Source of the DNA: Acidithiobacillus sp. | GTDB lineage: Bacteria > Pseudomonadota > Gammaproteobacteria > Acidithiobacillales > Acidithiobacillaceae | Direction of reading: 5' to 3' | Length of the DNA: 33,283 nucleotides | Assembly: GCF_027322205.1 (NCBI RefSeq) | Contig: NZ_DAHVHY010000019.1 | Location: 1-33,283, forward strand | Shown here: piece by piece, positions 1-17,972 of the stretch | How positions within the stretch are numbered: position 1 is the stretch's first letter | Layout: each line of letters opens with the position of its first letter | Position numbers and translations under genes: made by a program | Notes under the pieces: generated by a model | Told to the model about the DNA's origin: nothing | Databases searched by the model: none | Seen by the model: the letters and a program-made list of their open reading frames with translations, nothing else

Positions 1-1287
1 CCGGCTCTCGGCAAAAAGGACCCGCAGCCGGGCATAACCATCTCCCTCCTGCTCTACCGGGATGTCCATGGGCAGTGTCTGGTAGTTGCCGTACGGCAGG
101 GTACGACGCAGGTCGATGACCCGTCCCGAAGCACGGGCGATGGGACCGACCACGCCATAGGTGTGGGCGAGCTCCGGGCTCAGGGCGCCCATTTCCTCAA
201 TACGGTCGAGAAAACTGGAGCTGTTTTCCAGCAGACGCTCCAGTTCTCGCATGCGCCCATTCAGCGTCGGCAGGGTCTCGGCCAATAGGGTGAGCTGCGC
301 AGGGTCCAGATCAAAGTTCAAGCCACCAAGCGTCAGCAAACCGAAGAAATAACGATGTCCGCAAAGCCGCGCGCTGAGCCGCAACAGGTCTTCGACAATT
401 TCCTGGGCCATGGCCTTGGCCACGGACAGTGCCGTGGAGCCGGCGATTTCCGCAATATTGGCTGCGTGATGACGGATGCGTTCCAGTTCCGCGATGATCA
501 GGCGCAGGCTCTGGGCGCGGGCGGGCACCGTGCAATCGCCTATTCGCTCTGCTGCCTGACAATAGGCCCAGGCGTGAGCGAAAGCGGAAGCCCCGGCAAA
601 GCGTTCGGCCAGCAGCAAGGCGCGATCCGCCGTCTGCCCTTCGGCAATCTTCTCGACGCCCCGGTATTTGTAAAAGAGGCGAGTATGCAGATAGCGAATC
701 TGCTCGCCCGGGGTCTCCAGCAGCCACAGGCCGGATTCGTTGAAATCCCCCCAGACCGGACCGATGGGGAAGATGATGGAGCCCTCCTCCTGGAGAATTT
801 TCGGCGGCACCCAGTTTGCTCCGGAGCCATGCACGTCGGGCCGTCGACGACCATCGAAACGGTGTCGCATGGGGTCGAGGCCCTCCGGCCAGTCGTCGTC
901 ATGCAGTACAAAGTCGCCGAGGAAGGGATGCCCGCTGAAACGCAGGCCGTATAAATCCCAGGCCTCGCGCTCGTGCCAGTCAGCAGCGTGGACGGTGTCA
1001 CTGATGGCGGGCAATTCCTCCCCCGGACGTACCAGAATTTTCAGTTCGATCAGGCAACCGTCTTCCGGCAGATAGAAAAGATAATGCACGGCGAGGGGGG
1101 CTTCCGCTGAGGTCTCTTCCACCAGCAGGGTGGCAAACTCCGCCCGCCAGTGGTTGACCAGTGCAGTGGTCAGGGTGACGAGTTGATCGGCCTTACAGCC
1201 GAGTTGCAGCCAGCCCGCATAAATCTCGCGTACCGTGACGTCCGTCTGCTGCTGCAACCAGTCACTGATTTTCGCACCGGCCGTCAT
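1..1287 (-). CDS. NuoCD/HyfG-like large subunit of Ehr complex, set B (3' end outside window)
   Basis: The first 429 codons are present; the C-terminus lies beyond the left edge. Residues ~1-150 form the NuoC/30-kDa domain, seen in WHEREAWDLYG (104-114) followed by GLRFSGHP. From ~170 on it is NuoD/HycE-like, with RLFYKYRGVEKIAEG around 203-217. In true NiFe hydrogenases the next segment reads RxCGxC; here it is RFAGAS (229-234), so both metal cysteines are replaced (Ala231, Ser234). The GPxH loop histidine is also missing (GPVWG, 176-180). The protein should sit on the peripheral arm beside the NuoB-like subunit and cannot bind NiFe. The ATG at 1287 overlaps the stop of the upstream HyfF-like gene (ATGA), indicating translational coupling. 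What it reduces or oxidises is unknown. Confidence 0.85.
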   Translation of the reverse strand, partial: MTAGAKISDWLQQQTDVTVREIYAGWLQLGCKADQLVTLTTALVNHWRAEFATLLVEETSAEAPLAVHYLFYLPEDGCLIELKILVRPGEELPAISDTVHAADWHEREAWDLYGLRFSGHPFLGDFVLHDDDWPEGLDPMRHRFDGRRRPDVHGSGANWVPPKILQEEGSIIFPIGPVWGDFNESGLWLLETPGEQIRYLHTRLFYKYRGVEKIAEGQTADRALLLAERFAGASAFAHAWAYCQAAERIGDCTVPARAQSLRLIIAELERIRHHAANIAEIAGSTALSVAKAMAQEIVEDLLRLSARLCGHRYFFGLLTLGGLNFDLDPAQLTLLAETLPTLNGRMRELERLLENSSSFLDRIEEMGALSPELAHTYGVVGPIARASGRVIDLRRTLPYGNYQTLPMDIPVEQEGDGYARLRVLFAESR

Positions 1288-2765
1288 CCGTGGACCTCCA
1301 GCAGGTATGCCGCCTGGTGTACCAGATGGGCGAGGGGCGGTGGCAGATAAAAGCCGAAAATAAAGACCGGAATAATGGCCATGGCCATGGCCGCCAGGCT
1401 AGTACGCGGCAGGCGCACCTTAGGCAGCGGTCGGCCATCGGCTGCGGTGGCGGGCTCCCCGAAGGCGATGCGCGAGGCTTGGTAGGCCAGGGCGATGAAG
1501 GCCAGCACGATGAAGGCGGTGAGCAAACCGGTGGGCAGATACTGGCCGGTGCGGAAACCCGTGTAGAGAATCTCGAACTCCGACAGAAAGAGCGCGAAGG
1601 GTGGCGCCCCGGCAATGGCCAGGGTACCGATCACCAGAGCCCAGCCCACTGCGGGTGCGCGACTGATGAGGCCGCGCACCTTGGCGATTTCCTGCGTGCC
1701 GAAGACGATCCCCGCCAGTCCCGCCGCATAAAAGCACAGCGACTTGGTAAAGCCGTGGGCGAAGAGCTGATAGACCGTGCCCTGCTCGTGGACGGCGGCG
1801 CCGATGCCACAGGCGGTCAGAATGATCCCCATGTGCTCGATGGTGGAGTAGGCAAACATCCGCTTGAAATCATGGACCTGCAAAAGCATGAAGGCGGCGC
1901 TGCCGACGGTGATGAGTCCTGCCGCCATATACCAGGCCGCCGGATCATGAACGCCGGAGTTGGATGCCAGCACCGGATAGATGCGCAAGAGCATGTAGAG
2001 GGCAGCACTGGTCTCGACGCCGGAGAGCACGGCACAGACCGAAGCCGGAGCCTGGCTGTGGGCATCGGGCAGCCAGGTATGCATGGGCACCAGCCCGGTT
2101 TTGGCGCCGAAGCCGATCAGCCAGAGGACAAAAGCGAGGAGCAACAGGGGCGCGGGTATTTGCGGAGCCGCCTTCAGCAGTCCGTCCCAGGTAGGCGGTT
2201 GGTCGACGGCGTGGGTGCCGTAATAGAGCATCAGCACGCCGAGCAACGCGATCATCGCCCCCATACTGGTCAAGACCACGTATTTCCATGCCGCTTCCAG
2301 CGCTTCGGCACGGTCCTCATAAGCCACCAGAAAGGCCGAGAATACCGTGGTCAGCTCAATGGCAATCCACATCAGAGCAAGGTTGGCGACCAGCGGCACG
2401 GCTAAAATCACCAGCGCGAAGATGTTCATCAGGGGGAAATATTCCCGGTAACGAGGCGGCGTTCCTGCGGGATGTTCCTGACGGCGTGCCCGGAGATAAC
2501 CAATGGCATAGAGGGATGAGGTAAAATAAACGAAGCTCACCGGCAGCAAATAGAGCGCCCCGAGGGCATCCAGCGCAAAGAGACCATCCGTTCCGGTCAG
2601 CAGGCCGTGGCTTTCCACTTGTAGCGCCGCCAGTATGGCGAGTATCAGAGTGATTGCCGCCGCCAGCAGGGTCATATAGGGTGCGGCCCGCCGATTCAAT
2701 AGGGCGAGCAGCGCCCCGACGAAGGGCATGAGCAGGATGAGTGCCGGTAGCCAGCTAGCGTTCAT
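1284..2765 (-). CDS. HyfF-like antiporter-type proton channel subunit, set B
   Basis: A 493-residue polytopic membrane protein of the NuoL/M/N, MrpA/D and HyfF family, expected to carry ion translocation in the membrane arm. Family hallmarks are intact: the transmembrane lysine segment GFGAKTGLVPMHTWLPDAH followed by a 'SVCAVLSG' turn, a Glu/Lys segment AEALEAAWKYV, and the later YQLFAHGFTKSLCFY helix with His and Lys. It is close in length and layout to the set A homologue at 10869-12332. The start overlaps the preceding HyfE-like gene by 11 bases and the stop overlaps the next ATG. Paralogues in this family are hard to tell apart; HyfF is chosen because the order C-E-F-G matches hyf operons. 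Confidence 0.88.
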   Translation of the reverse strand: MNASWLPALILLMPFVGALLALLNRRAAPYMTLLAAAITLILAILAALQVESHGLLTGTDGLFALDALGALYLLPVSFVYFTSSLYAIGYLRARRQEHPAGTPPRYREYFPLMNIFALVILAVPLVANLALMWIAIELTTVFSAFLVAYEDRAEALEAAWKYVVLTSMGAMIALLGVLMLYYGTHAVDQPPTWDGLLKAAPQIPAPLLLLAFVLWLIGFGAKTGLVPMHTWLPDAHSQAPASVCAVLSGVETSAALYMLLRIYPVLASNSGVHDPAAWYMAAGLITVGSAAFMLLQVHDFKRMFAYSTIEHMGIILTACGIGAAVHEQGTVYQLFAHGFTKSLCFYAAGLAGIVFGTQEIAKVRGLISRAPAVGWALVIGTLAIAGAPPFALFLSEFEILYTGFRTGQYLPTGLLTAFIVLAFIALAYQASRIAFGEPATAADGRPLPKVRLPRTSLAAMAMAIIPVFIFGFYLPPPLAHLVHQAAYLLEVHG

Positions 2766-3435
2766 GGAGTGTATCCATGCCGCCCACCCGCGTGGTGCCG
2801 GTCACCCGGCGGATACTGCGAATCAGCAGGCCGATGACCAGCGCGACAATCGGTACGTCCACCGCCGCAGCAATCTCGGCAATGACCGTCAGATTGTGGA
2901 CGATGGCGATGGAGCCGAAGAAAGCCCCGTTTTCCATGATCAGGAGACCCATCAACTGGGCGACACTTTCCCGGCGCAGGGCGACGGTAAAGGCGCCCCA
3001 GAGCACCATGATCAGGCCGGTGGGCAAATTTAGCAGCGCAAACGGTGTGCCATGGAGGATTGGCAGTACCGGCGCCACCGCGAACCAGCCCACCAGCGCG
3101 AGTATCGCCGCCACCAGTACCGAGGCCGAAATGCTCAGAGCCTGATCCACTTCGCGCCGCCCATAGATTTCCTCTCCGGCAGCCCAGCGCAGTACCAGCG
3201 GCACCGCGATGACCTTGGTGCTGAAGGTGATCAGCGCCACCCAGAGCAGATTGATGGCCTGCAAAGCATCGGCCAGCACCAGTGCCGAGGCCGTCAGCGC
3301 GACGGATTGCCACATGAAAAAGCGCAGGGACCCCAGCATCTGCCGGGATACCATTACCCCGAGACCGAGCACGACGAAGAGGGCGGCGATGGAGCCGTCC
3401 AGGCTGAAGGCGAGGGGGCTCACGGTGGTATTCAT
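2755..3435 (-). CDS. HyfE-like membrane subunit, set B
   Basis: A 226-residue hydrophobic protein of the HyfE/hydrogenase-4 component E family; it is exactly as long as the set A copy. The C-terminal half resembles NuoK, with the buried glutamate in LMGLLIMENGAFFGS. It would form part of the ion-conducting membrane arm next to HyfC and HyfF. The frame is open farther upstream, but the start MNTTVSPLA is chosen because its ATG shares one base with the stop of the HyfC-like gene (TGATG). Its own 3' end overlaps the next gene by 11 bases. The product binds no cofactor that can be recognised from sequence. Confidence 0.85.
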   Translation of the reverse strand: MNTTVSPLAFSLDGSIAALFVVLGLGVMVSRQMLGSLRFFMWQSVALTASALVLADALQAINLLWVALITFSTKVIAVPLVLRWAAGEEIYGRREVDQALSISASVLVAAILALVGWFAVAPVLPILHGTPFALLNLPTGLIMVLWGAFTVALRRESVAQLMGLLIMENGAFFGSIAIVHNLTVIAEIAAAVDVPIVALVIGLLIRSIRRVTGTTRVGGMDTLHER

Positions 3436-4397
3436 CAGCCAAGCCCCACCAGCCGCACGCTGACCGCGAAGAGGCAAATCACAAAGGCCACTGCGAGAAA
3501 CTCGGAGATCCGGAAGAGCCGTAGTTTAGCGAGGGTGGTTTCGATGAGGGCGAGGACCATCACAAAAACCAGCAGTTTGAGGAGTACCAGACCCACTGCC
3601 GCGAGAATGGCCGTCCACTGTGTGTGTTGCGCAAGGCCCCACGGCGTCACCAGCACATTGACTAAGACCAGGGCCAGCACCATCAGTTTGGTTGTCCCGC
3701 CCCATTTCATCAGCGCCGCGCTGGTACCCGAATATTCTAGCCCTTTGGAGTGGCCGATCATGGCGATTTCCACCTTGCCTGCGGCGCTATCCACCGGAAT
3801 GCGGCCCTCATCCGCGAGAATGAGCAGGAAAAAGGCGAGAATCACCAGCAAATGCGAGGGTTGCAGCATGCTGCCCCACGATGCCCCCCAAGTGGCATTC
3901 ACGAAATAGGGGATGGTGCTGTTCGCCACATAGGACACGCTGAAAAACACCATGATGAACACCGGTTCGGCCAGAAAACCGACCATGTGGGTGCGGCTGG
4001 CGCCCACTGCGGCGTAGACATTGCCCGTGTCCATGCCTGCCAGCGCGACAAAAAACCCGGAAACAGCCATCAGAAAGCCCACCGCGACCATATCCCCCAT
4101 GAAGGCAAAAAAGAGGGGGTAGGCAGTCAGCGCCGGAATCAGCAGCACCACAAACATCGGCATGACAAAAGCGACAATCGGCGCGAAACGGAATACCCAG
4201 GTGGACTCCTCGGAGATGACTTCATCTTTGCCGAATAGCTTCCAGATATCCCGGTAGGTCTGCCAGATGCTGGGTCCGCGTTTGCCCTGAATGATTTCTT
4301 CCAGGCGATGCAAAACGCCTTCGACCAAGGGCGCGAAAATCAGCAAAAAAGCGACCTGCGCGAGGTTTAATGCGAAATGTGTCCACAGGGCTGTCAT
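3435..4397 (-). CDS. HyfC/NuoH-like membrane subunit, set B
   Basis: A 320-residue NuoH/HyfC/EchB-type protein, the membrane anchor that connects the peripheral arm to the antiporter-like subunits. Visible landmarks are LEEIIQGKRGPSIWQTYRD near the N-terminus, GASRTHMVGFLAEPVF in the middle, and the acidic loop ADEGRIPVDSAAGKVEIAM, equivalent to the EDRxPFDxxE loop of NuoH. The chosen start, MTALWTHF, lies 16 bases after the stop of the VIT-like gene; upstream in-frame codons do not look like protein. It opens the second Ehr gene set in this operon and has the same partner order as set A. Confidence 0.88.
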   Translation of the reverse strand: MTALWTHFALNLAQVAFLLIFAPLVEGVLHRLEEIIQGKRGPSIWQTYRDIWKLFGKDEVISEESTWVFRFAPIVAFVMPMFVVLLIPALTAYPLFFAFMGDMVAVGFLMAVSGFFVALAGMDTGNVYAAVGASRTHMVGFLAEPVFIMVFFSVSYVANSTIPYFVNATWGASWGSMLQPSHLLVILAFFLLILADEGRIPVDSAAGKVEIAMIGHSKGLEYSGTSAALMKWGGTTKLMVLALVLVNVLVTPWGLAQHTQWTAILAAVGLVLLKLLVFVMVLALIETTLAKLRLFRISEFLAVAFVICLFAVSVRLVGLG

Positions 4398-4413
4398 GGG
4401 TGCCGCCTGCAGA

Positions 4414-4938
4414 TCATGAGAAACCCACCTTGTAGCCCAGCACCGCCAGCACATCGCCAATGCCCATCAGTCCCAGCGCCCATTTCCAGCGTGCGCCTTG
4501 TACCCAGTAACCGAGCACCAGACCCACCGTCATCAGGGTGAGATTGGCAGCAAAAAGTGGCAGATAAATCCACCGCGGAAAGAGTACGGCCAGCGTCAGT
4601 GGTATCGCCGCGCCGCCGAAACTGCTGGTGGTGGCGAGGCTCGCCATAAACCAGGAATTACGCAGGGTTTGCAGGCCCAGGTCGCTTTTTTGCAGCGCAT
4701 GGGCAGAAGCCATATTCAGCTGCTTCGCCATCCTGACCAGATCGCTGCGTAGTCCCGCATATTCCGCCATCCATAAGGGCAAAAAGCCCGATGCCGAGGT
4801 GATGATGCCAATGCGAAAGGCCTGCCAGACATCGATGCCGCCCGTCATCATCTTCTGGCTGGCCAGCACCAGCGCCGTGCAGGTTCCGTCGGCGAGACCG
4901 AGTACTATGGGGAATATCTCCCGGCGCGATATTTTCAT
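4414..4938 (-). CDS. VIT1/CCC1-like membrane protein
   Basis: A 174-residue membrane protein with roughly four or five hydrophobic segments. The N-terminal stretch FPIVLGLADGTCTALVL resembles the first helix of VIT1/CCC1 iron-manganese transporters (VLGANDGIVSTxxLV), and the C-terminal part ends in a glycine-rich hydrophobic segment as in that family. The middle region (about 55-95) is amphipathic, like the cytosolic metal-binding helices, but lacks the glutamate density of plant VIT. Its ATG overlaps the DUF211 stop (ATGA), and it lies just before the set B Ehr genes. Transport of a divalent metal is a family-based guess; it may be only a distant relative. Confidence 0.6.
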   Translation of the reverse strand: MKISRREIFPIVLGLADGTCTALVLASQKMMTGGIDVWQAFRIGIITSASGFLPLWMAEYAGLRSDLVRMAKQLNMASAHALQKSDLGLQTLRNSWFMASLATTSSFGGAAIPLTLAVLFPRWIYLPLFAANLTLMTVGLVLGYWVQGARWKWALGLMGIGDVLAVLGYKVGFS

Positions 4939-5222
4939 TTGCTGGCCCGTCGCCGGTAATCGACCATGCGATCACCGACGACAATTTCCTCGACACCATG
5001 CACGGCAGCACCACTTTTTTCGATGGCCGCAAGCAATCCGATATAATCGATATTGTCACCTTCCACATTGATCAGTGTGCCGACCGTTTCCTGATCGACT
5101 TCTTCCACCGAAATATTAAAACCCTCCACACCGCTGACTTTTTCGATGGCCGCGGCAATATCGAACAAACTGGGCTGAGCAAAAGCCTTATCGACATCCA
5201 GTACAAGCCTTCTGATACGCAT
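4935..5222 (-). CDS. DUF211 family protein
   Basis: A 95-residue soluble protein that fits DUF211, a small family seen mostly in archaea and some bacteria and predicted to have a ferredoxin-like alpha-beta fold. It begins MRIRRLVLDVDKAF; the alternating pattern (VEGFNISVEEVDQETVG, then GDNIDYIGLLAAIEKSG) matches the beta-alpha-beta pattern of the family. Start chosen at MRIRR because the upstream in-frame sequence is non-coding in character. It overlaps the VIT-like gene by four bases, suggesting the two act together. Function is unknown; small-molecule or metal sensing is an inference from fold and company. Confidence 0.75.
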   Translation of the reverse strand: MRIRRLVLDVDKAFAQPSLFDIAAAIEKVSGVEGFNISVEEVDQETVGTLINVEGDNIDYIGLLAAIEKSGAAVHGVEEIVVGDRMVDYRRRASK

Positions 5223-5245
5223 TTTATAAAGTGCTCCCTGTGATT

Positions 5246-5515
5246 CTAATGTAGCTGTCCCATGCGGACGGCACGTACCACCCACTCAATATCTTCGACA
5301 ATATTTTCAGGTTCACAAGGTGCCCGATAATGACCAATCAACAGGCAGGGTCCAGCAGGGCCTGGGCCGGACAGCACGGAATCCTTCAAAGGCACAACAT
5401 GGGCTGATCCGTTGTGGCATATCCACAGCGCTACGCCGATACGCGGGTATTCACCGGTTTTACGGACGACGCGCTCTGCCAGTGCATCCACTGACTGTTT
5501 AAGTCGAATGACCAT
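5246..5515 (-). CDS. 89-residue hypothetical protein
   Basis: No family is recognised. The product is soluble, begins MVIRLKQSVDALAERVVRK (a likely amphipathic helix) and continues with a probable beta strand, IGVALWICHNGSAHVVPLKD. It has two cysteines (in WICHNG and APCEPEN) and ends in an aromatic-acidic helix. The frame extends upstream, but the start is set at 5515 because the zinc-ribbon gene ends at 5499, giving a normal 17-base overlap. It sits in the middle of the six-gene cassette between the two Ehr gene sets, so it is probably co-expressed with them. A role as an accessory or assembly factor is possible, without direct support. Confidence 0.65.
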   Translation of the reverse strand: MVIRLKQSVDALAERVVRKTGEYPRIGVALWICHNGSAHVVPLKDSVLSGPGPAGPCLLIGHYRAPCEPENIVEDIEWVVRAVRMGQLH

Positions 5516-5909
5516 AGTGATCTGTTTCCTTCTTTGCCAGCAGTTCTCCTGCAGCAACGCGTATTGCATGGGCTTCATGTTGCTGTAATTGCCGTAAGGC
5601 AGCGGTTTTCTCGGCGCCGTCCGGTAATTTTGCGATGGCCTCGACAACGGCCATTCCCTGCACCACATCAATAGGCCAGTTCATGGCGCATTCCGCCAAC
5701 GACCCTGCGGCAGCTTCCCGGCCATGATTCTGTAGGCTGAGAATAGCCCCCATCCGTACTTCGGAATGGGGGTTTTTCAGCGCCCGGATCAAGCGGTCGT
5801 AATATGGCGTGTGGCGTTCCCAGTCCTCAATATTCCGCCCGCAGGCCGGACAAATGATCGCACCAATGGAAATCTCCGCATAACAGAGTGGGCAGTAATG
5901 ATGGTTCAT
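5499..5909 (-). CDS. Zinc-ribbon protein with HEAT-like helical repeats
   Basis: A 136-residue soluble protein. The first ~30 residues hold two CxxC pairs, CPLCYAE and CPACGRN, spaced as in a zinc ribbon. Residues ~45-125 are helical and read like HEAT/PBS-lyase-type repeats (PHSEVRMGAILSLQNHG, then VVQGMAVVEAIAKLPDG, then HEAHAIRVAAGELLAKK). Such repeats usually hold protein partners. The start MNHHYC is chosen because its ATG overlaps the DUF190 stop (ATGA); a slightly longer form beginning four residues earlier is possible. Context points to an accessory or assembly protein of the Ehr operon; no catalytic residues are evident. Confidence 0.7.
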   Translation of the reverse strand: MNHHYCPLCYAEISIGAIICPACGRNIEDWERHTPYYDRLIRALKNPHSEVRMGAILSLQNHGREAAAGSLAECAMNWPIDVVQGMAVVEAIAKLPDGAEKTAALRQLQQHEAHAIRVAAGELLAKKETDHYGHST

Positions 5910-6223
5910 TCGCAACCGCAATCGGCTTGCCAGCGCAGAATATGGCCCGGTGGCACCATTTCCTGCAGGTGCGGCATCACGGCATCCACTGTCTCTGGCT
6001 CATCAAAAAACTCCAGTACCAGCGGCAAATGCACATTGAGGCGCAGAACATCGTCGGCATGCACTACCCCTTTGCTGCCAAAGCCCGCGATACCGCGAAA
6101 GGCGGTAACGCCATGCACCTTGTACTGATCGTGGAGCATGCGGAAGATTTCCTCCATGAGATTATGCCCGTCATGTTTATCGCCTTCTTTAATATAAATA
6201 CGCACTACAGATACCGTAGTCAT
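5906..6223 (-). CDS. DUF190 family PII-like protein
   Basis: A 105-residue protein of the DUF190 family, which has a PII-like ferredoxin fold. The pattern VVRIYIKEGDKHDG, then HGVTAFRGIAGFGSKGVVHADD, then PLVLEFFDEPETVDAV is characteristic. DUF190 genes are commonly found beside crcB, as here (10-base gap), and PII-like proteins typically bind a small ligand and regulate a membrane partner. A good Shine-Dalgarno stretch (GAGAGGTG) precedes the ATG at 6223. The C-terminus ends in an unusual Cys-Gly-Cys-Glu tail that could bind metal. Regulation of CrcB or of the Ehr complex is inference from context. Confidence 0.85.
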   Translation of the reverse strand: MTTVSVVRIYIKEGDKHDGHNLMEEIFRMLHDQYKVHGVTAFRGIAGFGSKGVVHADDVLRLNVHLPLVLEFFDEPETVDAVMPHLQEMVPPGHILRWQADCGCE

Positions 6224-6233
6224 GCTTCACCTC

Positions 6234-6611
6234 TCAGATGCTGCGGGAAACCCAGGCCCCGACAAAAGCGGCACCGACGCACAGAAACAGCGATGTAAAC
6301 ATATAGAGCAGGCCCTTGATGGCCTCGCCATTCTCAAAAAGCACCAGCGTTTCGAGGGAGAATGTCGAAAAGGTGGTGTAAGCACCCAGTCCGCCGGTGA
6401 GTATTCCGGTGCGTAATTCAGGGCTTACCGAAATACGTTCCAAGGTCTCAAAAAACAGGAAGCCCATGATAAAACAGCCCAGCACATTAATGCTCAGGGT
6501 TGCCCAGGGAAAACCGCGGCCGAACACCGTCTGCACCAGCAAGGTCTGTCCATAACGCGCCCAGGCGCCGAGTACGGCGAACAGGGCAATGAAGCCGAAA
6601 GTGGCGAACAT
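6234..6611 (-). CDS. crcB: CrcB/Fluc fluoride channel
   Basis: A 125-residue, four-helix membrane protein of the CrcB/Fluc family, which exports fluoride as an antiparallel dimer. Diagnostic pieces are GAWARYG in the first helix, WATLSINVLGCFIMGF with the conserved Asn, and GGLGAYTTFSTFS around the central sodium and fluoride pathway. Length is normal for a single-gene Fluc. A clear ribosome site (GAAGGAG) precedes the ATG at 6611, just 15 bases after the HyfB-like stop. Being inside an energy-complex operon rather than under a fluoride riboswitch is a little unusual. Fluoride toxicity is high at low pH, because HF crosses membranes, which would suit an acidophile. Confidence 0.93.
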   Translation of the reverse strand: MFATFGFIALFAVLGAWARYGQTLLVQTVFGRGFPWATLSINVLGCFIMGFLFFETLERISVSPELRTGILTGGLGAYTTFSTFSLETLVLFENGEAIKGLLYMFTSLFLCVGAAFVGAWVSRSI

Positions 6612-6626
6612 CTTTACTCCTTCACA

Positions 6627-8588
6627 CTACAAATAAAAGACGCTGGCAAAAACAACGATCAACAATATCCCGATATAAGCGAGATAGGCATTGAGCGAAC
6701 CATTCTGTAAAACTAGACCGATCCGGTCGCTGAGCTGCTGTACCAGGCGTACCATCGGGCGGAATAACCAGGGTCCAAAGACGGGGGCCTGACTGTAATT
6801 AAAGTGCACCTCATGAACGAAATAATGGCGGTCCGTATGGCTTTTTTCGGTATGGGTGCTGGGCCGGTACACAAAGCTGTAAAATTCCCGCAGTGCATTG
6901 GAAAAAGCCAGCGCGGTCACCGCATTTTCCGCCGGTATCCGGCGCAGGCCGTGACCCCATACGGGTACCCGGCGGCGGCCGTGACTGCGCTGGCTCCAGC
7001 CCAGCAAACCCAGGGGAATCAGCGCCAGTACAAGCCCCATGAGCAGTAGCAAAGGTGGCGAAATAAAGGCGAAATGAGGGGTCAATGGCACCAGTATCGG
7101 GCCGCGCACCATGGCGGCCACGGCGGTGGGAACGGCGGGCCAGCCGTCCCGGACCAGCGCCGCTAATGTCCATGGCAGCGCCACGGCATAGGCCAGCACC
7201 AAAAGACCCAGACCCAGAAGCGGCCAGCGGCCCGTGACTTCGGCTGGATTTTCCTCCCGTCCGAGCAGACCGATGCCGAAGACTTTGACCATCGTCGCCA
7301 GGGCAATGGCGGCGGTCAGGGCCAGACCGGCACCGCCCAGCGCCAGGATCACCCGCGCGGCAGAGGAAGTCAGATGGAAATCCTGAAACACGGTTTGAAA
7401 GAGATACCATTCACTGGCAAAGCCCGCCATGGGTGGCATGGCGGCGAGACTCATGGCCCCGAACAGCGCGCCGATGCCCAAGGTCCAAGGGGCGAGGGCC
7501 AGTACCCGACTTTGCGCGATCTGATAATTGCCGCGCACCGCCGCCACCCGGTCGGCGCTCAGCATCATCGCGCCTTTGGCCAGACTATGGCCGCCGAGAT
7601 GAATCAGGCCTACCGTCCAGGCCAGAGTCGTCAGCATGGACAGGCCGTCGGCCCGAAAGAGGGAGGCGGCACCCAGCGCGACCACCGCCAGCCCCGCATT
7701 TTCCGCTGTGGAAAAGGCCAGCAGGCGCCGCCAGTCTTCCTGTTGAAAGGCGTAGAGAATAGCGAGGATGGCGGATACCGTCCCCAGGGACACCAGCAAA
7801 ATGCCCACCCCGGTGGCGGCACCGACCGGCAACCAGTCGAGCATGGCCCGTCCCAGGGCAAAATACGCGACGTTCAGCACAATGCCGGAAAGCAGCGCCC
7901 CCGAAGCACCGCTGCCACTCCCGTAAGCACCCGGATACCATTCATAAAAGGGCAGAATACCGAGTTTGGCGCCGAAGCCGATAATGAACAGGACCGCCAC
8001 CCCGAAGGCCGCCGTGCCATAAGTGGACCAGCTCGCCGCCCAGCCGACAAACTGCGTATCGCTCGCGCCGAGCAGCGCCAGACAGAGCAACAGCGCCACC
8101 GCGCCAATTTCCAGCAGGGCCAGCATATAGAGACTGGCCTGCCCGCCGCGTTGAGTTTCCTGCAGGCCGTCGGCGAGGAGCATGACCGCCCCGCCGAAAC
8201 TCAAAAACTCCCAGGCAATCAGAAAAGAGACACCCTCCTGCAAACCGGCAACGCCGAGACTGCCGAGTAAGGCAACGGCTGCGCCGGCCATCCAGATGGT
8301 GGGGTTTTTGGCGCGACTGGGGGAGAGAAAGGCCGCCAGCGCTGCCAGTCCACCCCAGAACAGCAGCCAGGCCGCAGCGGGCTGGAGTTGCCAGGTCACG
8401 GCAATATCGCCCAGCGACCACAGCGCACCGGTCGCCGAACCGTCCGGCAAGCAGGAGGCGCTGCCAATCAGTGTCGCCAGTGTACCCACAATCAGGGTGA
8501 TCCGCGCCAGCCAGCCCTGCCGCAGCACACCGAGGGCAATGGTCAGAACCAGGAGCAGAGCAGCGATGCAAAAACTATCCAGCACCAT
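6627..8588 (-). CDS. HyfB-like antiporter-type membrane subunit, set A
   Basis: A 653-residue polytopic protein of the HyfB/HycC/NuoL superfamily, last gene of the complete Ehr set. The C-terminal tail after ~570 (FVYRPSTHTEKSHTDRHYF and a final hydrophobic helix) is typical of HyfB/HycC, not NuoM. The TM5-type glutamate (Glu127 in AWEFLSFGG) and the TM7-type lysine (Lys208 in GFGAKLG) are kept. The usual PLHxWLPxAH segment reads PFYEWYPGAY (213-222), so its histidines are lost. The start at 8588 is chosen by homology; it overlaps the preceding gene by 14 bases, and earlier in-frame codons are the shadow of that gene. It may conduct ions by a modified route. Confidence 0.87.
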   Translation of the reverse strand: MVLDSFCIAALLLVLTIALGVLRQGWLARITLIVGTLATLIGSASCLPDGSATGALWSLGDIAVTWQLQPAAAWLLFWGGLAALAAFLSPSRAKNPTIWMAGAAVALLGSLGVAGLQEGVSFLIAWEFLSFGGAVMLLADGLQETQRGGQASLYMLALLEIGAVALLLCLALLGASDTQFVGWAASWSTYGTAAFGVAVLFIIGFGAKLGILPFYEWYPGAYGSGSGASGALLSGIVLNVAYFALGRAMLDWLPVGAATGVGILLVSLGTVSAILAILYAFQQEDWRRLLAFSTAENAGLAVVALGAASLFRADGLSMLTTLAWTVGLIHLGGHSLAKGAMMLSADRVAAVRGNYQIAQSRVLALAPWTLGIGALFGAMSLAAMPPMAGFASEWYLFQTVFQDFHLTSSAARVILALGGAGLALTAAIALATMVKVFGIGLLGREENPAEVTGRWPLLGLGLLVLAYAVALPWTLAALVRDGWPAVPTAVAAMVRGPILVPLTPHFAFISPPLLLLMGLVLALIPLGLLGWSQRSHGRRRVPVWGHGLRRIPAENAVTALAFSNALREFYSFVYRPSTHTEKSHTDRHYFVHEVHFNYSQAPVFGPWLFRPMVRLVQQLSDRIGLVLQNGSLNAYLAYIGILLIVVFASVFYL

Positions 8589-9369
8589 AATGGCCTCCCT
8601 GAACCTGTTGCGGCATCCGTTCCAGCAGCAGGAGCAGCGCATGGATGAGGGCTGCGGGATTGGGCGGGCAGCCCGGCAGCCAGACATCCACCGGCAAAAG
8701 TTCATTCAGTCCATGGCCACCCGCGTAGCCACCGTCCATGGGCGCACCAGAGACCGCGCAGGTGCCCGTCGCGAGCACCAGGCGCGGTTCCGGCATCGCC
8801 TCCCAGGTGGCCAGCAGCGGTTCGCGCATGGGCGCCGTTACCGGACCCGTCACCATGAGTAAATCCGCAAAGCGCGGCGATGGGGTAAAAAATATGCCCA
8901 ACCGATGGAGGTTGTAGAACGGATTGTCGAGGGCGCTGATTTCGGACTCGCAGCCATTGCAGGAGCCCGCATCCACATGACGAATGTGCAGGCTGCGGCG
9001 CAGGCTCCGTGCCACCCGCTTGCCCACTTGCTGTCCTTCGGGGCCATCCAGTGCCGCAGTCCAGATCAGGTCTTCGCGCCGCCGCACGCCGAAGGCCCAG
9101 TCATAAGAGCTGGTCATCGCCCCTTCTGGACAATCCTCCACGCAACGCTGACAGACGATGCAGCGCCCGTAATCGACCACCGCTGTGCCGTTGGCGACGG
9201 TGATAGCGCCCGTGGGGCAGGCGGCGGCGCAAGTATTGCAGTCGCTGCGACAGGCAGCCGGGTCCCAGCGCGGCATGCCCAGCACGCCCTCCTGCCCGTC
9301 GGGACCGCGCTGCGGCCAGCGGGTCGCGGCTTTACCCGCTTTTAATCCTGTCCAGGTCCATACCGGCAT
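8575..9369 (-). CDS. Fused ferredoxin (HyfH/NuoI-like) + NuoB/HyfI-like electron-transfer subunit
   Basis: A 264-residue fusion of two proteins that are normally separate. Residues ~35-85 hold two 4Fe-4S motifs: Cys40/44/47/51 (spacing CxxxCxxCxxxCP, one residue longer than usual at the first step) and Cys70/73/76/80 (classic). Residues ~130-245 are NuoB/HyfI/small-subunit-like with all four ligands of the terminal N2-type cluster: Cys137 and Cys140 (SCNGCESE), Cys204 (TGTCAVSG) and Cys234 (PGCPPNP). It should carry electrons through three 4Fe-4S clusters to the NuoCD-like subunit. Only this set A copy is in the window; set B may have its own beyond the left edge. The start follows the NuoCD-like stop by 9 bases. 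Confidence 0.9.
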   Translation of the reverse strand: MPVWTWTGLKAGKAATRWPQRGPDGQEGVLGMPRWDPAACRSDCNTCAAACPTGAITVANGTAVVDYGRCIVCQRCVEDCPEGAMTSSYDWAFGVRRREDLIWTAALDGPEGQQVGKRVARSLRRSLHIRHVDAGSCNGCESEISALDNPFYNLHRLGIFFTPSPRFADLLMVTGPVTAPMREPLLATWEAMPEPRLVLATGTCAVSGAPMDGGYAGGHGLNELLPVDVWLPGCPPNPAALIHALLLLLERMPQQVQGGHYGAG

Positions 9370-9378
9370 TTTGTCCTC

Positions 9379-10872
9379 CTAACGGTCGCAACCGGCGATG
9401 GTGAGGCCGAAACTGGCCTCATTGATGGCGTAGTCCATCATGTTGGTGCCATGCACCGTGAGCGGGAACACCCGCCAGTTGGAAAATGAGGGTGATTTGA
9501 TCTTCACTCGTTCGAGACGGCCATCGCGGATCCGCACGCTGTAATACAGCGAGCCGCGCGGCGTTTCCGTCCAGCCCAGGCCTTCCTGCTGTCCCTGTGG
9601 CACGGTGTATTCAGCGCGCACCGGACCCGCCTTGAGGCGTCCGGAGGCCTGCATCAGCAGGGCGATAGCCTCGCGCAGGGAATCCGCGCGAACCTCGCTG
9701 CGGGCCATGGCGTCGCCCTTTTCGCGCACCGGCACATTAAAGCGCAGGTGACTGTAGGCGGCGTAGGGATGGTCGCGGCGCAGGTCCCGGTCGAGGCCGG
9801 AGGCACGGGCCACCGGCCCGGTAGCCCCCTGATCAAAGGCGGCTTCCTTCGATAAAATTCCGGTGCCCATCAGGCGGTCGAGATGGCTGGCGGTTTGGTG
9901 CAAGCGGGTCAGATAGGCTTCACCTTCGTCGATGATATTTTCCAGCACACTCGCCAGGTGCTCCGCCTGGAGGTCGCGGCGCAGCCCGCCCACAGTCAGC
10001 AGGCTGCGCAGGAATCGCGACCCGGTCAATTGCGCGGCCACCTGCTTCACCCGTTCTTCCAGCAGAAAACCCGTCGCCGAGCCTACTTTCAGCGTCGTCG
10101 TCTTCGCCAGCAGGCCAAAATAGTGGAAGTGATTGTAGAGGCGCTCCAACTCCGCAAGAATCACCCGCAGCAGTTGTGCCCGCGCGGGTACTTCGATACT
10201 CCAGGCGGACTCCACGGCCTGACAATAGGCCAGGGCATGGCCGACGCTGCCGACGCCCGACACCCGCTCCGCCAGAAAAACGGCCGCCTCGGCACGCTGA
10301 CCGGCAAAGCGTGCTTCCATCCCGCGATGTTTGAAAAACAGCCGGGGATGGTAGTGGAGAATCGCTTCGCCGATGTAAGAGAAGTGAAACTCCCCGGTCT
10401 CTACCACGTCGGCCCGTATTGGCCCCCAATAGAGGTCTTGTACCTGGTCTCCCCGCACTTCCGGCATGGTGGGTGGTGCATACGCACCGCTCAGATGGCC
10501 TTCCGGTCCCTCCCGCCCCAGCGCTGGGCGGGGCAGCGAAAATCCTTCGTGAATCACCAGGGGATAGGGCTCTGGATGCCCCGTAAAGTGCAGACCACCG
10601 AGATCCTGCATCTCCCGCTCATACCAGCCGAGCAGGGGGACGACGGCGGCCAGGGACGGCAAGGTTTCGTCCGTACGCAACTCCAACAGCAGAAAAGGTA
10701 CCCGGTTGCCTTGGCTGATCAGATAGCGCACGACACAGACACCCTCCTCCCAGTCATGCCAGGCCATCTGAAAGCGCATCCCGGCGGCTATGCAGTCGGT
10801 GGCGACCGCCGTGAGCTCCGCTGCCGATATCTGGCGCCGTTCGCAATCGTTATAGGTCATGGCCGCACTCAT
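9379..10872 (-). CDS. NuoCD/HyfG-like large subunit of Ehr complex, set A
   Basis: A 497-residue fusion of a NuoC-type domain (WYEREMQDLGGLHFTGHP at 83-100) with a NuoD/HycE-type large-subunit domain. In hydrogenases the N-terminal NiFe motif is RxCGxC after HRGxE; here HRGME (182-186) is followed by RVSGVGS (203-209), with Ser205 and Gly208 in the cysteine positions. The C-terminal motif DPCxxCxxR reads GLTIAGCDR; its only cysteine (495) is one residue off register. NiFe binding is therefore excluded. The NuoD quinone-loop histidines are not obvious either (GPIRADVVETGEFHF). The start MSAAMTYND overlaps the HyfF stop (ATGA). The reaction is unknown; the architecture fits Ehr complexes. Confidence 0.9.
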   Translation of the reverse strand: MSAAMTYNDCERRQISAAELTAVATDCIAAGMRFQMAWHDWEEGVCVVRYLISQGNRVPFLLLELRTDETLPSLAAVVPLLGWYEREMQDLGGLHFTGHPEPYPLVIHEGFSLPRPALGREGPEGHLSGAYAPPTMPEVRGDQVQDLYWGPIRADVVETGEFHFSYIGEAILHYHPRLFFKHRGMEARFAGQRAEAAVFLAERVSGVGSVGHALAYCQAVESAWSIEVPARAQLLRVILAELERLYNHFHYFGLLAKTTTLKVGSATGFLLEERVKQVAAQLTGSRFLRSLLTVGGLRRDLQAEHLASVLENIIDEGEAYLTRLHQTASHLDRLMGTGILSKEAAFDQGATGPVARASGLDRDLRRDHPYAAYSHLRFNVPVREKGDAMARSEVRADSLREAIALLMQASGRLKAGPVRAEYTVPQGQQEGLGWTETPRGSLYYSVRIRDGRLERVKIKSPSFSNWRVFPLTVHGTNMMDYAINEASFGLTIAGCDR

Positions 10873-12332
10873 GGTTGCACCCGAAAAGCCTGCTGAAAGA
10901 AATGCCACAGTCCTTCCGGCCACCACAGTCCAAGCACCAGAATCGGTACAAAGGCCAGCCACATGGGCAGGGTATTCCAGACGGACAGCCTGAGGGTTGG
11001 GACCGCGCCGGGCTCCGGTTCCGGCCCCCAGATCATGCGCCGGAAGTGGTTCATGAAGGCAATAAAAATAAGGATCAGCAGAGTCGCCATCACCCACACG
11101 GCCCACGGATTGGCGCTCAGGATACCGCCGCGCAGAATCGTGATTTCCGAGAGGAAGAGCCCGAAAGGCGGTGCTCCAGTAATCGCCACAGCCCCCAGCA
11201 GCCAGAGCGCGCCACTGACCGGGTAATAACGCAATACCCGTCGCATCTGGCTCATGGACTTGGTGCCATAGGCGCGCATCATGTTGCCAGCGCCGAAAAA
11301 CATCATGGATTTGGTCAGGGAATGGTTGATCATGTGATACATAGCCCCGGCGAAGGCCAGGGGACCGCCGAAACCGAAGCCGATGGCCAGCACCCCCATG
11401 TGTTCCAGGGAGGAATAGGCGAGCATGCGCTTGGCGCCATCCTGCCGGACGATGAACATTCCGGCGATGAAGAGTGAAATGACGCCCAGCACCAGCAGTG
11501 CCGTATGCCCCATTACGCTATAACCACCGCTATCGACGATGGACAGAAACCGGTAAATGCCGAGCAGGGCGATATTCAGCAATGACCCGGAAAGCATGGC
11601 GGAAACCGGCGCCGGGCCTTCGCTGTGGGCATCGGGCAGCCAGGTGTGCATGGGTGCCAGACCCACCTTGGTGCCGAAGCCCACCAGGGTGAGCAGAAAG
11701 GCGAGAAAGAGCAGCGTCTCCGGCACATGCGGCGCCACTTCCCGCAGATTAGCCCAGGTCAGGGCATAGGTCGGTCCTAAGGTAAAGGTGCCACCCCAGT
11801 AGAAGAGAATGATGCCGAGCAGCGCCAACGCCAGACCCGCGGAAACGATGATCAGATATTTCCACGCCGCCTCGATACATTCTGCCTCGCGCTCGAAGCC
11901 CACCAGAAAGGCACTGACGATGGTGGTGAAGTCGATGGCAATCCAGAAAATGCCGGGGTTATTCATCAGCGGCGCGATCAGCATGGTCAGGGCAAAACTC
12001 GCCTGCAAGGCATAATACTTATGGAGCCGGGGTTTTTCTTCCGGCAGCAGGCGCATGTAGCCAATGGCATAAATGGATGCCAGCAGATAGACCAGACCTA
12101 CGCAAAACAGTACCCAGGCCCCCAGCGGGGTGAGCAGGATCAACTGGGCGCCGGTCACCAGCGTCTTGTCGGGCACCGCCACCAGCATCGTCAGGGTGAG
12201 TCCGAAAACTACGATGGAGTTGCCGAAGTTGATGTACTCCGCCCAGTGTGGACGGCGGATCGCCAGCATCAGCAGGATGGCCACTGCGGGTATGATCCAC
12301 AGTGCTGCGATGAGTGCGTCGAAATTCACCAT
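10869..12332 (-). CDS. HyfF-like antiporter-type proton channel subunit, set A
   Basis: A 487-residue polytopic membrane protein of the HyfF/NuoM/MrpD family. The conserved ion path is present: EREAECIEAAWKYLI (Glu and Lys of the TM5 region), GFGTKVGLAPMHTWLPDAH (TM7 lysine and following histidines), and MYHMINHSLTKSMMFFGAG (His and Lys of the later helices). The start MVNFDALIAALW is chosen because it lies one base after the HyfE stop; upstream codons belong to HyfE in another frame. Set B has a counterpart of nearly equal length at 1284-2765. It is expected to pump or admit protons (or Na+) coupled to electron flow in the peripheral arm. Confidence 0.9.
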   Translation of the reverse strand: MVNFDALIAALWIIPAVAILLMLAIRRPHWAEYINFGNSIVVFGLTLTMLVAVPDKTLVTGAQLILLTPLGAWVLFCVGLVYLLASIYAIGYMRLLPEEKPRLHKYYALQASFALTMLIAPLMNNPGIFWIAIDFTTIVSAFLVGFEREAECIEAAWKYLIIVSAGLALALLGIILFYWGGTFTLGPTYALTWANLREVAPHVPETLLFLAFLLTLVGFGTKVGLAPMHTWLPDAHSEGPAPVSAMLSGSLLNIALLGIYRFLSIVDSGGYSVMGHTALLVLGVISLFIAGMFIVRQDGAKRMLAYSSLEHMGVLAIGFGFGGPLAFAGAMYHMINHSLTKSMMFFGAGNMMRAYGTKSMSQMRRVLRYYPVSGALWLLGAVAITGAPPFGLFLSEITILRGGILSANPWAVWVMATLLILIFIAFMNHFRRMIWGPEPEPGAVPTLRLSVWNTLPMWLAFVPILVLGLWWPEGLWHFFQQAFRVQP

Positions 12333-12333
12333 C

Positions 12334-13014
12334 TCAGCCCACCAGCTTTTGCAGGCCGCGACTGCTGGTGGTTCCGGCGTGTACTTTGAGGAGGCGCACC
12401 AGCATGCCGAAGGCAAAGACAATGATCAGCAGATCGAAGATGATCACCAGCTCCAGGAGGTCCGGCATGCCAGGTACCAGAATCTGCGAGCCGAGAAAAA
12501 TGCCATTCTCAATCACCAGCAGCCCCAGAATATGGCTGATGGCCTCGGAGCGCAGGATCATCATCAAAAAGCCGATGAGCTTGAGGCTGAACATGCAGGT
12601 CAGGGCCAGCACCGCGATATTGTCGGTCAGGTGTAGCGCCACTCCCAGTTGCCTTGCGACTTCATAGGAAAAAATCACCAGCGCCGCGCCGAGGACCATG
12701 CTGGAGGAAGGCTTGAGCAGCGGGGTGAACTCGCGTTGGATATCCAGCCGGTTGACCAGCCGCAGCACCAGATAAGGGAGCATGGTCCCGCGAAAAATCG
12801 CCGTCAGAACAGCGATGAGGTAGAGTTCCGGATAATGCCCGTAATAGCCGATGGAGGCGGAAATGGCCGCGATGGTCCAGGATTCCGCCGCAAAAGCATA
12901 AACATGATTCTTCAGCCAATGGGATGCCAGCATCACGAAGGACAGCACCAGCGCCAGAATCGCCAGCAGACTGAACAGGGAAGCGGCCAGGGGACCCAGA
13001 TGAAAGATCAGCAT
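12334..13014 (-). CDS. HyfE-like membrane subunit, set A
   Basis: A 226-residue, strongly hydrophobic HyfE/hydrogenase-4 component E homologue. The second half is NuoK-like, with the membrane glutamate in ILGLLVIENGIFLGS, and the N-terminal half adds helices not found in NuoK. The ribosome site AGGAGGG overlaps the TAG stop of the HyfC-like gene (TTTAGGAGGGTGCG, then ATG), a compact coupling signal that fixes the start at 13014. It belongs to the membrane arm of the complete Ehr complex. Residues 70-110 hold a basic loop (FRGTMLPYLVLRLVNRLDI) likely facing the cytoplasm. Confidence 0.88.
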   Translation of the reverse strand: MLIFHLGPLAASLFSLLAILALVLSFVMLASHWLKNHVYAFAAESWTIAAISASIGYYGHYPELYLIAVLTAIFRGTMLPYLVLRLVNRLDIQREFTPLLKPSSSMVLGAALVIFSYEVARQLGVALHLTDNIAVLALTCMFSLKLIGFLMMILRSEAISHILGLLVIENGIFLGSQILVPGMPDLLELVIIFDLLIIVFAFGMLVRLLKVHAGTTSSRGLQKLVG

Positions 13015-13023
13015 CGCACCCTC

Positions 13024-13965
13024 CTAAAGCTGGTCAGCCACGATGGCCAGCACGGCAAAGAGAAAGGACAGCGCCAGCGGCTCCTGATAACGGTAGAAGC
13101 GTAGTCGCGACTGCAGCGTGTCCACGGCCACCATCACCAGCCCCACCGCGCCATATTTGGCCAGTATGATAAGCAAGGCGAGCAGCACCGAACCCAGGCT
13201 GCCCGTCGTGGACAATCCCCACGGAAAGAAAAAGACGTTGAGAAAAATGGTGTAGAGCAAAAACTGCTTCATCCAGCTTGCCCACTTCAGCAGGGCCAGC
13301 AATGGCCCGGAATACTCCAGAATCCGCGCCTCGTCGATCATGTAAATCTCGTAAGGGATGGTGGAGTGGATGGGCAGGCGGTCCGTTTCCACCGTCAGCA
13401 GGATGAAAAAAGCGAAGATCAGAAAGATATGCGCCGGGCTCCAGTAGGCTACCGGATGCTGCGCCAGCAGGTGATTGGCGACGAAGGGCAGCATGGAGTG
13501 ATCGAGAAAAGTGATACCCACGAAGACCAGGATCAGGGTCGGTTCGGCGAGGATGGCGAGCATCACCGCGCGGCTGGAACCCAGTCCACCGAAGGGCTGA
13601 CCCGTATCCAGCCCGGCCAGCAGGATGAAAAAGCCACCAAGGGTCAGGATGAGTCCGCCACCGAGGATATCCCCCATATCGGACAGGGGCAGGGGGAAAT
13701 TGGTCAGCACCGGAATCAGCATCGGCACGATGAGCATGGTGGTAAAAGCCACCACCGGCGCCCAGAAAAACACCCAGGACGCAGATTCCGGTATCAGCAG
13801 AGTTTTGTGGAAAAGTTTCCAGAGATCCCGATAGGGCTGGAAAATGGAAGGACCCTGTCCGCGCTGAACGCGCTCTTCCATGGTGACCATGAAGCCGTGC
13901 AAGAGCGGTGATAACAAAAGCACCGTCAAGACTTGTCCACTCTGCAAGACGATATCGCCGAGCAT
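13024..13965 (-). CDS. HyfC/NuoH-like membrane subunit, set A (first gene of operon)
   Basis: A 313-residue NuoH/HyfC homologue and the first gene of the >14-kb operon. Landmarks: MEERVQRGQGPSIFQPYRD near the N-terminus, GLGSSRAVMLAILAEPTLI in the middle, and the charged loop VETDRLPIHS followed by YEIYMIDEARILEYSG, corresponding to the NuoH loop that meets the peripheral arm. It should anchor the electron-transfer module and form the start of the proton path. A strong purine-rich ribosome site (GGGGAAGG) lies directly before the ATG at 13965, and the leader can fold to cover it (see the leader entry). Similar to, but clearly diverged from, the set B copy at 3435-4397. Confidence 0.9.
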   Translation of the reverse strand: MLGDIVLQSGQVLTVLLLSPLLHGFMVTMEERVQRGQGPSIFQPYRDLWKLFHKTLLIPESASWVFFWAPVVAFTTMLIVPMLIPVLTNFPLPLSDMGDILGGGLILTLGGFFILLAGLDTGQPFGGLGSSRAVMLAILAEPTLILVFVGITFLDHSMLPFVANHLLAQHPVAYWSPAHIFLIFAFFILLTVETDRLPIHSTIPYEIYMIDEARILEYSGPLLALLKWASWMKQFLLYTIFLNVFFFPWGLSTTGSLGSVLLALLIILAKYGAVGLVMVAVDTLQSRLRFYRYQEPLALSFLFAVLAIVADQL

Positions 13966-14080
13966 GCCTTCCCCTTTATATGGTTTCTACAACTCTCTAC
14001 CGCCCGACCTTGCGATCAGGATCAGTAGCAGTCATTAGCCTATAAAGGCGGTTATTGGGTGGACTTCATCACCGCTATGG
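13966..14080 (-). promoter_or_regulatory. Structured 5' leader of the Ehr operon with competing inverted repeats
   Basis: About 115 nt lie between the predicted transcription start and the first ATG. In the plus strand, cctttata (13973-13980) is complementary to tataaagg (14041-14048), and accgcc (13999-14004) to ggcggt (14047-14052). The distal arms share two bases, so the two pairings compete. The 13973-13980 arm touches the ribosome-binding site of the HyfC-like gene. A small local hairpin, gcctATAAaggc (14038-14049), is a third option. The arrangement is like a translational switch, but no known riboswitch class is recognised, and short arms can arise by chance. Confidence 0.4.
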
Positions 14081-14087: not shown

Positions 14088-14116
14088 ATGGTAGTAAGGT
14101 GCGATGATGAGGTCAA
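14088..14116 (-). promoter_or_regulatory. Sigma70-like promoter of the Ehr operon
   Basis: Read on the minus strand: TTGACC (14116-14111), a 17-base spacer, then TACCAT (14093-14088). The -35 box matches five of six consensus bases, the -10 four of six, and spacing is ideal. The -35 overlaps the TGA stop of the upstream glycosyltransferase gene. No other promoter of comparable quality is seen before the first Ehr gene. No sigma54-type GG-N10-GC element, common for group 4 hydrogenase operons, was noticed. Confidence 0.5.
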
Positions 14117-15783: not shown

Positions 15784-15801
15784 GGTCAGCTCCTGGTGAG
15801 G

Positions 15802-16089
15802 TTACACTGGCTTCGTATAAATCGCTAAGCATCGCGATGCTTCATATTGTCGCGCTTCCCACAAGTCGTAGCCCACCTGCATGCGCAACCAGAACCCGGC
15901 ATCTATCCCCAGCGCTGTTTCAAGACGCAATGCCATATCAGCGCTTACACCAGAGCGCCCGTTCAAGGGCGCCGATAGTGTTTGCCTGGTTACGTTCAAG
16001 GCGTTAGCGGCATCCGTGACGCTCATACCTTCCGGCAGATACTCGCGTAGTACTTTGCCGGGATGCGCGGGATTGTGCATTTCGCTCAT
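15802..16089 (-). CDS. higA: HigA-family antitoxin (Xre-type HTH)
   Basis: A 95-residue HigA/VapI-type antitoxin. The N-terminal MHNPAHPGKVLREYL is the hallmark opening of HigA, followed by a helix-turn-helix (VTDAANALNVTRQTLSAPLN, about 24-43) and the family signature SADMALRLETALGIDAGFW. It would bind operator DNA and neutralise a RelE-like HigB ribonuclease. However, no intact higB precedes it: only the last codons of a toxin-like frame survive 10 bases upstream (16100-16132). The antitoxin reading frame itself looks intact, so it may persist as an orphan regulator or as protection against related toxins. Start at 16089 fits the family N-terminus. Confidence 0.9.
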   Translation of the reverse strand: MSEMHNPAHPGKVLREYLPEGMSVTDAANALNVTRQTLSAPLNGRSGVSADMALRLETALGIDAGFWLRMQVGYDLWEARQYEASRCLAIYTKPV

Positions 16090-16099
16090 GATATCATTC

Positions 16100-16135
16100 C
16101 TAGTGGTAATCCAGATAATCGACCAGCTCCGCCCT
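16100..16135 (-). pseudogene. higB: higB toxin remnant (3' end only)
   Basis: Read on the minus strand, the codons before the TAG at 16102-16100 give RAELVDYLDYH. The ending VDYLDYH-stop, about 10 bases before higA, is how HigB toxins of this family normally end. Farther upstream the same frame (PVQRSLN, then CYP and onward) shows no resemblance to the HigB core, and no start codon gives a ~90-residue toxin. The break coincides with the palindrome at 16132-16157, suggesting a deletion or rearrangement. Eleven codons is little evidence, so confidence is moderate. Confidence 0.5.
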
Positions 16136-16157
16136 GTTCAGCGACCGCTGAACAGGG
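16132..16157. repeat. 26-bp near-perfect palindrome
   Basis: The arm ccctgttcagcg (16132-16143) is followed by AC and the exact inverse cgctgaacaggg (16146-16157): 12 paired bases around a 2-base centre. There is no T-run on either side, so it is not a normal terminator. It lies exactly where higB homology ends. It could be a protein-binding site, a cruciform-forming sequence or the scar of a mobile element. Confidence 0.7.
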
Positions 16158-16214
16158 TAGCACACGAAGGCGGGGCTGTGTTGCGGCGATGTGCATGGAT
16201 CTTTACTTATGAAT

Positions 16215-16231
16215 TCAATTTCAGAAATTGA
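16215..16231. promoter_or_regulatory. Inverted repeat, candidate operator of the truncated antitoxin
   Basis: TCAATTT (16215-16221), spacer CAG, AAATTGA (16225-16231): seven paired bases, ending nine bases before the ATG of the DUF1778-type fragment. Ribbon-helix-helix antitoxins bind short palindromes in their own promoters, so this may be the former autoregulatory operator. Confidence 0.4.
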
Positions 16232-16239
16232 GGGTTACC

Positions 16240-17888: not shown

Positions 17889-17914
17889 AGACATCCCCGC
17901 TTGTGCGTACCGCA

Positions 17915-17944: not shown

Positions 17945-17972
17945 TCCGTAAATTTTTGCGGGGGTTGAAAAC

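Follow-up and report, generated by a model that had tools for sequence, protein, structure and literature searches.

The window analysed here is a stretch of 33,283 nt from Acidithiobacillus sp.; it makes up the whole of contig C61 in a draft genome of 2.28 Mb, estimated to be 90% complete. A preliminary description had read positions 1–13965 as two hydrogenase-like gene sets, here called A and B. Both sets are indeed there; however, the same span also contains crcB, a gene for a VIT-like protein, a DUF211 gene and small open reading frames (ORFs). Our main subject is set A, seven genes on the minus strand (13965 to 6234), which are preceded by a fluoride riboswitch and end with a gene for a fluoride channel.

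In the order of transcription, set A encodes a NuoH/HyfC-like membrane subunit (13024–13965; PF00146, E 1e-30), a HyfE/NuoK-like membrane subunit (12334–13014; recognized by a weak PF00420 match and by the conserved gene order), a HyfF/NuoN-like antiporter subunit (10869–12332; PF00361, E 1e-50), a large subunit of the NuoC+NuoD/HycE type without NiFe ligands (9379–10872; PF00346, PF00329 and PF00374, ligand columns and a structure model), a 2[4Fe-4S] ferredoxin fused to a NuoB-like subunit (8575–9369; PF01058 and Fer4 models) and a NuoL/HyfB-like antiporter subunit (6627–8588; PF00361, E 4e-22). The final gene, crcB (6234–6611; PF02537, E 1e-26), codes for a Fluc fluoride channel; it lies 15 nt past NuoL and is the sole copy found in the genome. 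As the junctions between the genes measure from −8 to +15 nt (computed from one choice of starts), set A is very likely a single transcription unit; the NuoL start at ATG 8588, chosen here, gives an overlap of 14 nt with the ferredoxin/NuoB gene.

The leader of set A carries a fluoride riboswitch aptamer (crcB motif, Rfam RF01734; 14019–14082, minus strand; 48.7 bits versus a gathering threshold of 34), the only one found in the genome, which ends 53 nt upstream of the NuoH start. Just before the aptamer, a consensus scan located a promoter-like site, TTGACC-17-TACCAT (14088–14116, minus strand), whose 9/12 matches do not exceed the shuffled expectation, so that only its position is suggestive. 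Between the aptamer and the gene there is a candidate expression platform (13960–14018, minus strand); in the ligand-free fold its ribosome site, AAAGGGG, pairs with the P3 region of the aptamer, which suggests, as far as one sequence can, a translational ON switch. The minimum-energy fold of the leader has −38.5 kcal/mol and a z of −2.4, again for the single sequence.

The association of set A with the riboswitch turned out to be widely conserved. When ∼85 000 species genomes were scanned, 198 relatives came to light, of which the best 80 named loci were taken: 63 from Pseudomonadota, 14 from Acidobacteriota and 3 from Actinomycetota. Wherever a locus was long enough to show them, the six complex genes stood in one constant order; within the taxonomic family of the window, all 16 loci had the same seven genes, order and riboswitch. 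With Rfam's own model, RF01734 was found upstream in 19 out of 19 sampled named loci. A second model, R1, built on 25 aptamers from the window and the named loci, placed the switch no more than 750 nt upstream of NuoH (median 157 nt) in 67 of 68 testable loci; since some of the R1 matches are its training sequences, the Rfam figure is given separately. The remaining locus, L093, has the order switch-crcB-nuoH. In a contrast set, no aptamer was present at five loci of set C (a paralogue elsewhere in the genome, described below) or at the two complex I loci checked. The gene crcB itself was found within 900 nt after NuoL in 41 of 67 loci. Thus, the view left by the preliminary description, that nothing hints at a partner or role, is not supported for set A, given a riboswitch at its head, crcB at its tail and the conservation of the switch in homologues. 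We consider the fluoride link of set A close to certain, and there is little doubt in our view that the complex is a fluoride-response complex.

Judged by name, most of the carriers are acidophiles or acid-soil taxa. In an even sample of 398 genomes of the phylum, the window's own genome was the sole one with set A; beyond its carriers, then, the complex is rare. Of the 80 loci, 15 have enolase genes in the vicinity and 12 have genes of MutS-like ATPases (named by eye), and further fluoride switches are common there; such neighbours and extra switches are as in known fluoride regulons. Some loci form fluoride islands, with at least five aptamers in ∼21 kb and some divergent pairs (L092, L107, L112, L125, L132 and L142). 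A dynamin-like GTPase of ∼570 aa, recognized by eye, likewise accompanies set A in 16 loci (including L098, L109, L117, L118, L127 and L131); to our knowledge it is not a known fluoride gene.

The large subunits were compared with Escherichia coli HycE (RVCGICG...DPCYSC) as the reference for ligand columns. The set A protein has the motif AERVSGVGSVGH and ends in ASFGLTIAGCDR; the set B protein has the motif AERFAGASAFAH, and its C-terminus, encoded on contig C122, reads ATWGLSVAENDR. In the four NiFe ligand columns there was no cysteine in 85 distinct A rows or in 10 B rows. The A sequences had Ser in 100%, Gly in 69% or Asp in 29%, Thr in 82% or Ser in 16%, and Gly in 100% of cases, respectively; the columns of set C were also free of cysteine, save for a single cysteine in one row out of five. 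The quinone site of NuoD fared no better: in the A rows the first His of the quinone loop is replaced by Arg in 100% and the second mostly by Val or Leu, and Gly stands in place of the Tyr in 97%. The preliminary description had noted that both large subunits lack the NiFe site, that the C-terminus of set A has no CxxC and that the NuoD quinone-loop histidines are not visible; it had proposed aligning the large subunits with NuoD and HycE, and this alignment bears out the loss of both NiFe and quinone residues.

One could suspect decay or chance behind such losses; however, the altered positions hardly vary among 85 distinct sequences from three phyla, which rules out a pseudogene, decay or chance. 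Residues R153, D155, E158, Y166, S205, N484, E485 and G494 are invariant in A large subunits and, as read from the alignment, mark a remodelled pocket rather than decay. Ligands supplied from elsewhere were considered as well and rejected, the Cys495 near the C-terminus being poorly conserved (75% Cys, 20% Ala). Set A large subunits have no C-terminal processing extension. HypD (PF01924) had no match in the 90% complete genome, while E. coli and other controls did match, and no true NiFe hydrogenase was found in the genome.

The AlphaFold model of the set A large subunit (pLDDT 85.8) is closest to HycE of E. coli formate hydrogenlyase (FHL), with Z 42.6 and 2.4 Å over 484 residues, and complex I comes next. 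The model of the ferredoxin-NuoB subunit was poor (pLDDT 59.8) and was not used.

Conservation elsewhere in the complex is of the opposite kind. All 82 A homologues compared retain twelve cysteines, four of the N2 type in the NuoB-like part (reported as intact by the preliminary description, rightly so) and eight in the ferredoxin part, a pattern of three conserved iron-sulfur (FeS) clusters. Near-invariant charges match those of Hyf or Nuo: K222, K341 and E396 in HyfF, E125, K206, K336 and E391 in NuoL, and likewise E169 and E188 in HyfE and the charges of NuoH. Judged from these residues, the electron path and the pump appear intact, and the acceptor end of the path appears new.

The make-up described above resembles that of energy-converting hydrogenase-related (Ehr) complexes, in which NiFe ligands are absent and whose function was reported as unknown (PMC10284858, PMC6349859). 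Like these, set A has group 4 hydrogenase-like large and small subunits (PF00346/PF00374/PF01058, with FHL and MBH among the best PDB matches), antiporter-like and NuoH-like membrane subunits (PF00361 twice and PF00146) and no NiFe residues, in agreement with the Ehr-like character suggested earlier. Unlike Ehr, set A has the fluoride riboswitch, crcB in the operon, a ferredoxin fused to the NuoB-like subunit and the gene order H-E-F-large-small-L. E. coli Hyc/Hyf shares the subunit types HyfB, C, E, F, G and I and provides the nearest solved large-subunit structure; in contrast to it, set A has none of the four NiFe cysteines and lacks the C-terminal extension, in a genome with no HypD found. 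Respiratory complex I (NuoB, CD, H, K, L and N) is alike in fold, N2-type cluster and pump residues, whereas set A has neither NuoE/F/G nor NuoA/J and carries Arg and Gly in place of the quinone-site His and Tyr.

HF, with a pKa of 3.2, enters acidophiles and dissociates; F− leaves by CrcB, and the cycle imports protons. From the regulatory element, the gene content and order and the residue conservation we infer the following course of events, in which induction, electron source, acceptor, proton transport and benefit all belong to the inferred part. At low pH HF would cross the membrane, dissociate in the cytoplasm and exit as F− via CrcB; every such cycle would bring in one proton, and the proton motive force would collapse. 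Cytoplasmic F− would turn on the set A operon. Low-potential electrons would pass through the ferredoxin and N2-like clusters to the remodelled acceptor pocket, and protons would be pumped out; this export would mend the leak and drive the membrane potential toward inside-negative, thus helping CrcB to expel F−. As the default guess, the acceptor could be a quinone bound in a new way.

Fluoride toxicity is strong at low pH, and the membrane potential of acidophiles is inside-positive (PMC12831704); furthermore, a fluoride channel could admit F− once the potential is lost (PMC11139923). A fluoride-induced electrogenic pump encoded together with the channel would answer both the proton leak and the potential problem. 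Set A is therefore best described, in our opinion, as encoding an Ehr-type, fluoride-induced and redox-driven complex that is most likely an ion pump, here one of protons. We assign a probability of about 0.6 to the whole reading, a fluoride-stress operon including a leak-repair pump; for the pump mechanism taken by itself the chances look even.

Several observations weigh against this reading. The complex has lost the canonical His and Tyr of the quinone site and with them any recognizable acceptor site, and redox-driven pumping would require an acceptor. The operon holds no electron-input partner. In 26 of the 67 loci crcB is not adjacent (20 of these 26 genomes have it elsewhere). Finally, the carriers include Nitrobacter sp. 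62-23 and Ancylobacter, which are not known as acidophiles; HF entry would presumably be smaller there.

Other explanations deserve less weight. The complex might resist fluoride and take over from some part of energy metabolism that is sensitive to it, as with switched enolase, rather than being a leak-driven pump. Fluoride regulons include fluoride targets, and the enolase genes near 15 of the 80 loci would fit; however, two ordinary complex I sets in the genome have no switch, and the active site is unlike that of any known respiratory enzyme, which makes a stand-in unlikely. Slightly less probable still is that the complex itself exports fluoride, its antiporter-like subunits moving F−/HF, or antiporting F− for H+, in a redox-driven way, with CrcB as partner or back-up. 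The near-obligate switch, the frequent crcB linkage and the presence of the genes in one operon are compatible with this, as are the A-specific invariant charged residues of the large subunit (R153, D155, E158, N484 and E485); on the other hand, the antiporter subunits retain ordinary proton-pump charges, CrcB is already an F− channel, and there is no recognizable fluoride-site motif. One could speculate about a primary fluoride pump, in which electron flow along the FeS chain would power the export of F− or HF by complex I-type subunits; we regard it as improbable, but if true it would be a kind of transporter not known before.

About as doubtful is the view that an Ehr-type complex serving acid or redox homeostasis in general just happens to travel with fluoride genes. 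It would agree with the acid habitats of many carriers (by name) and with the existence of set C, a paralogue beside RuBisCO genes and without a fluoride switch, but in 67 of 68 loci, spread over three phyla, the switch immediately precedes the first gene, which argues for fluoride regulation rather than mere travel. As for the identity given by automatic annotation, a fluoride-controlled hydrogenase or formate hydrogenlyase, E. coli FHL is the nearest solved structure, PF00374 matches and ‘formate hydrogen lyase’ was named downstream of crcB motifs in 2010, but with no NiFe cysteine in any of 85 rows, no processing extension and neither HypD nor a NiFe hydrogenase found in the genome, this identity is ruled out by the ligand columns for practical purposes.

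Set B (minus strand, 5285 to 1) starts ∼950 nt past crcB on the same strand and runs off the contig end. It is headed by genes for a DUF211 protein (4935–5285; PF02680, E 1.5e-26) and a VIT-like membrane protein (4414–4938; PF01988, E 0.002, below the cut-off); this pair (4414–5285, minus strand) recurs near set A in L093 and L142. There follow a NuoH-like subunit (3435–4397; PF00146, E 1.5e-30), a HyfE-like subunit (2755–3435; no Pfam match, assigned by position and conserved order), a HyfF-like subunit (1284–2765; PF00361, E 1.4e-49) and the large subunit (1–1287; PF00346/PF00329), which is cut by the contig end. Contig C122 supplies the C-terminus of the large subunit and the NuoB-like and NuoL-like genes; the overlapping residues include LPYGNYQTLPMD, and the join of C61 and C122 is confirmed by a contiguous copy in the near-identical genome G009. 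The NuoB-like protein of set B has, by eye, only four cysteines in the ferredoxin part (one CP, CxxCxxC), so a single cluster would fit.

No fluoride switch was found directly before set B in the window, even with filters off; a switch does precede set B in five congeners and in one Xanthobacteraceae bin. Set B probably has the same job as set A. Between crcB and set B (5499–5921, minus strand) there is a small protein with a zinc ribbon and HEAT repeats, relatives of which occur near set A in seven of the named loci. After NuoL of set B, C122 carries what appears by sequence to be a cyclopropane fatty acid synthase gene (5493–6800, minus strand), with a homologue near set A in 11 named loci; the connection may be a membrane made tighter against acid or HF.

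Set C, the third of the paralogues without a NiFe site, occupies positions 14022–5933 (minus strand) of contig C72 in the order NuoL-NuoH-HyfE-HyfF-large-NuoB. Immediately downstream comes cbbM, a form II RuBisCO gene, and a LysR-type gene is next to it (both identified by eye); the set may serve CO2 or bicarbonate supply; cbbM adjoins set C in L033, L035 and L036 too. The large subunits of A, B and C form separate groups with 100/100 support, apart from FHL and Nuo; in a FastTree run A and B were joined with support 1.0. The genome also encodes ordinary complex I, with two NuoD-type large subunits on contigs C107 and C77; one of the two complex I sets has a fused NuoCD and NuoE/F (NuoE/F/CD being on C107). 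Hence the earlier remark that no NADH module is present stands for the window, where NuoE/F/G are absent among the ORFs, but not for the genome.

The rest of the window (14113–31221) is ordinary: a glycosyltransferase (PMT_2), a sugar transferase, OmpA-like, TPR and radical SAM proteins, Tol genes, RuvABC, YebC, an acyltransferase, NadA and an aspartyl-type tRNA synthetase.

Parts of this picture had been noticed before. Weinberg et al. in 2010 mentioned ‘formate hydrogen lyase’ in one phrase among genes following the crcB motif (PMC2864571), probably the same association as that of set A, noted before the ligand was known; in contrast to that label, the genes of set A have no hydrogenase site, form a monophyletic group and are nearly always fluoride-switched. 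In 2018, hydrogenase-like clusters of Acidithiobacillus thiooxidans were described, some without L1/L2 signatures, with no fluoride link or function (PMC6002666); the motifs SGD[TS][TS]... and NLSYSGHDL given there match set C, and the second six-gene cluster, without L1/L2, has the gene order of set A or B. In a 2026 study, fluoride tolerance was highest in A. thiooxidans and lower in A. caldus. Judged by title and abstract, none of the papers found on fluoride riboswitches or crcB together with hydrogenases concerned this complex.

For the fluoride-switched genes examined here, the ‘formate hydrogenlyase’ label is thus corrected. With a near-obligate switch and crcB, one Ehr-type clade gains its first physiological context, fluoride, and with it a testable physiological role. 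Acidophiles have a membrane potential that works against the export of anions; set A points to a way in which they might survive HF, whose toxicity limits bioleaching.

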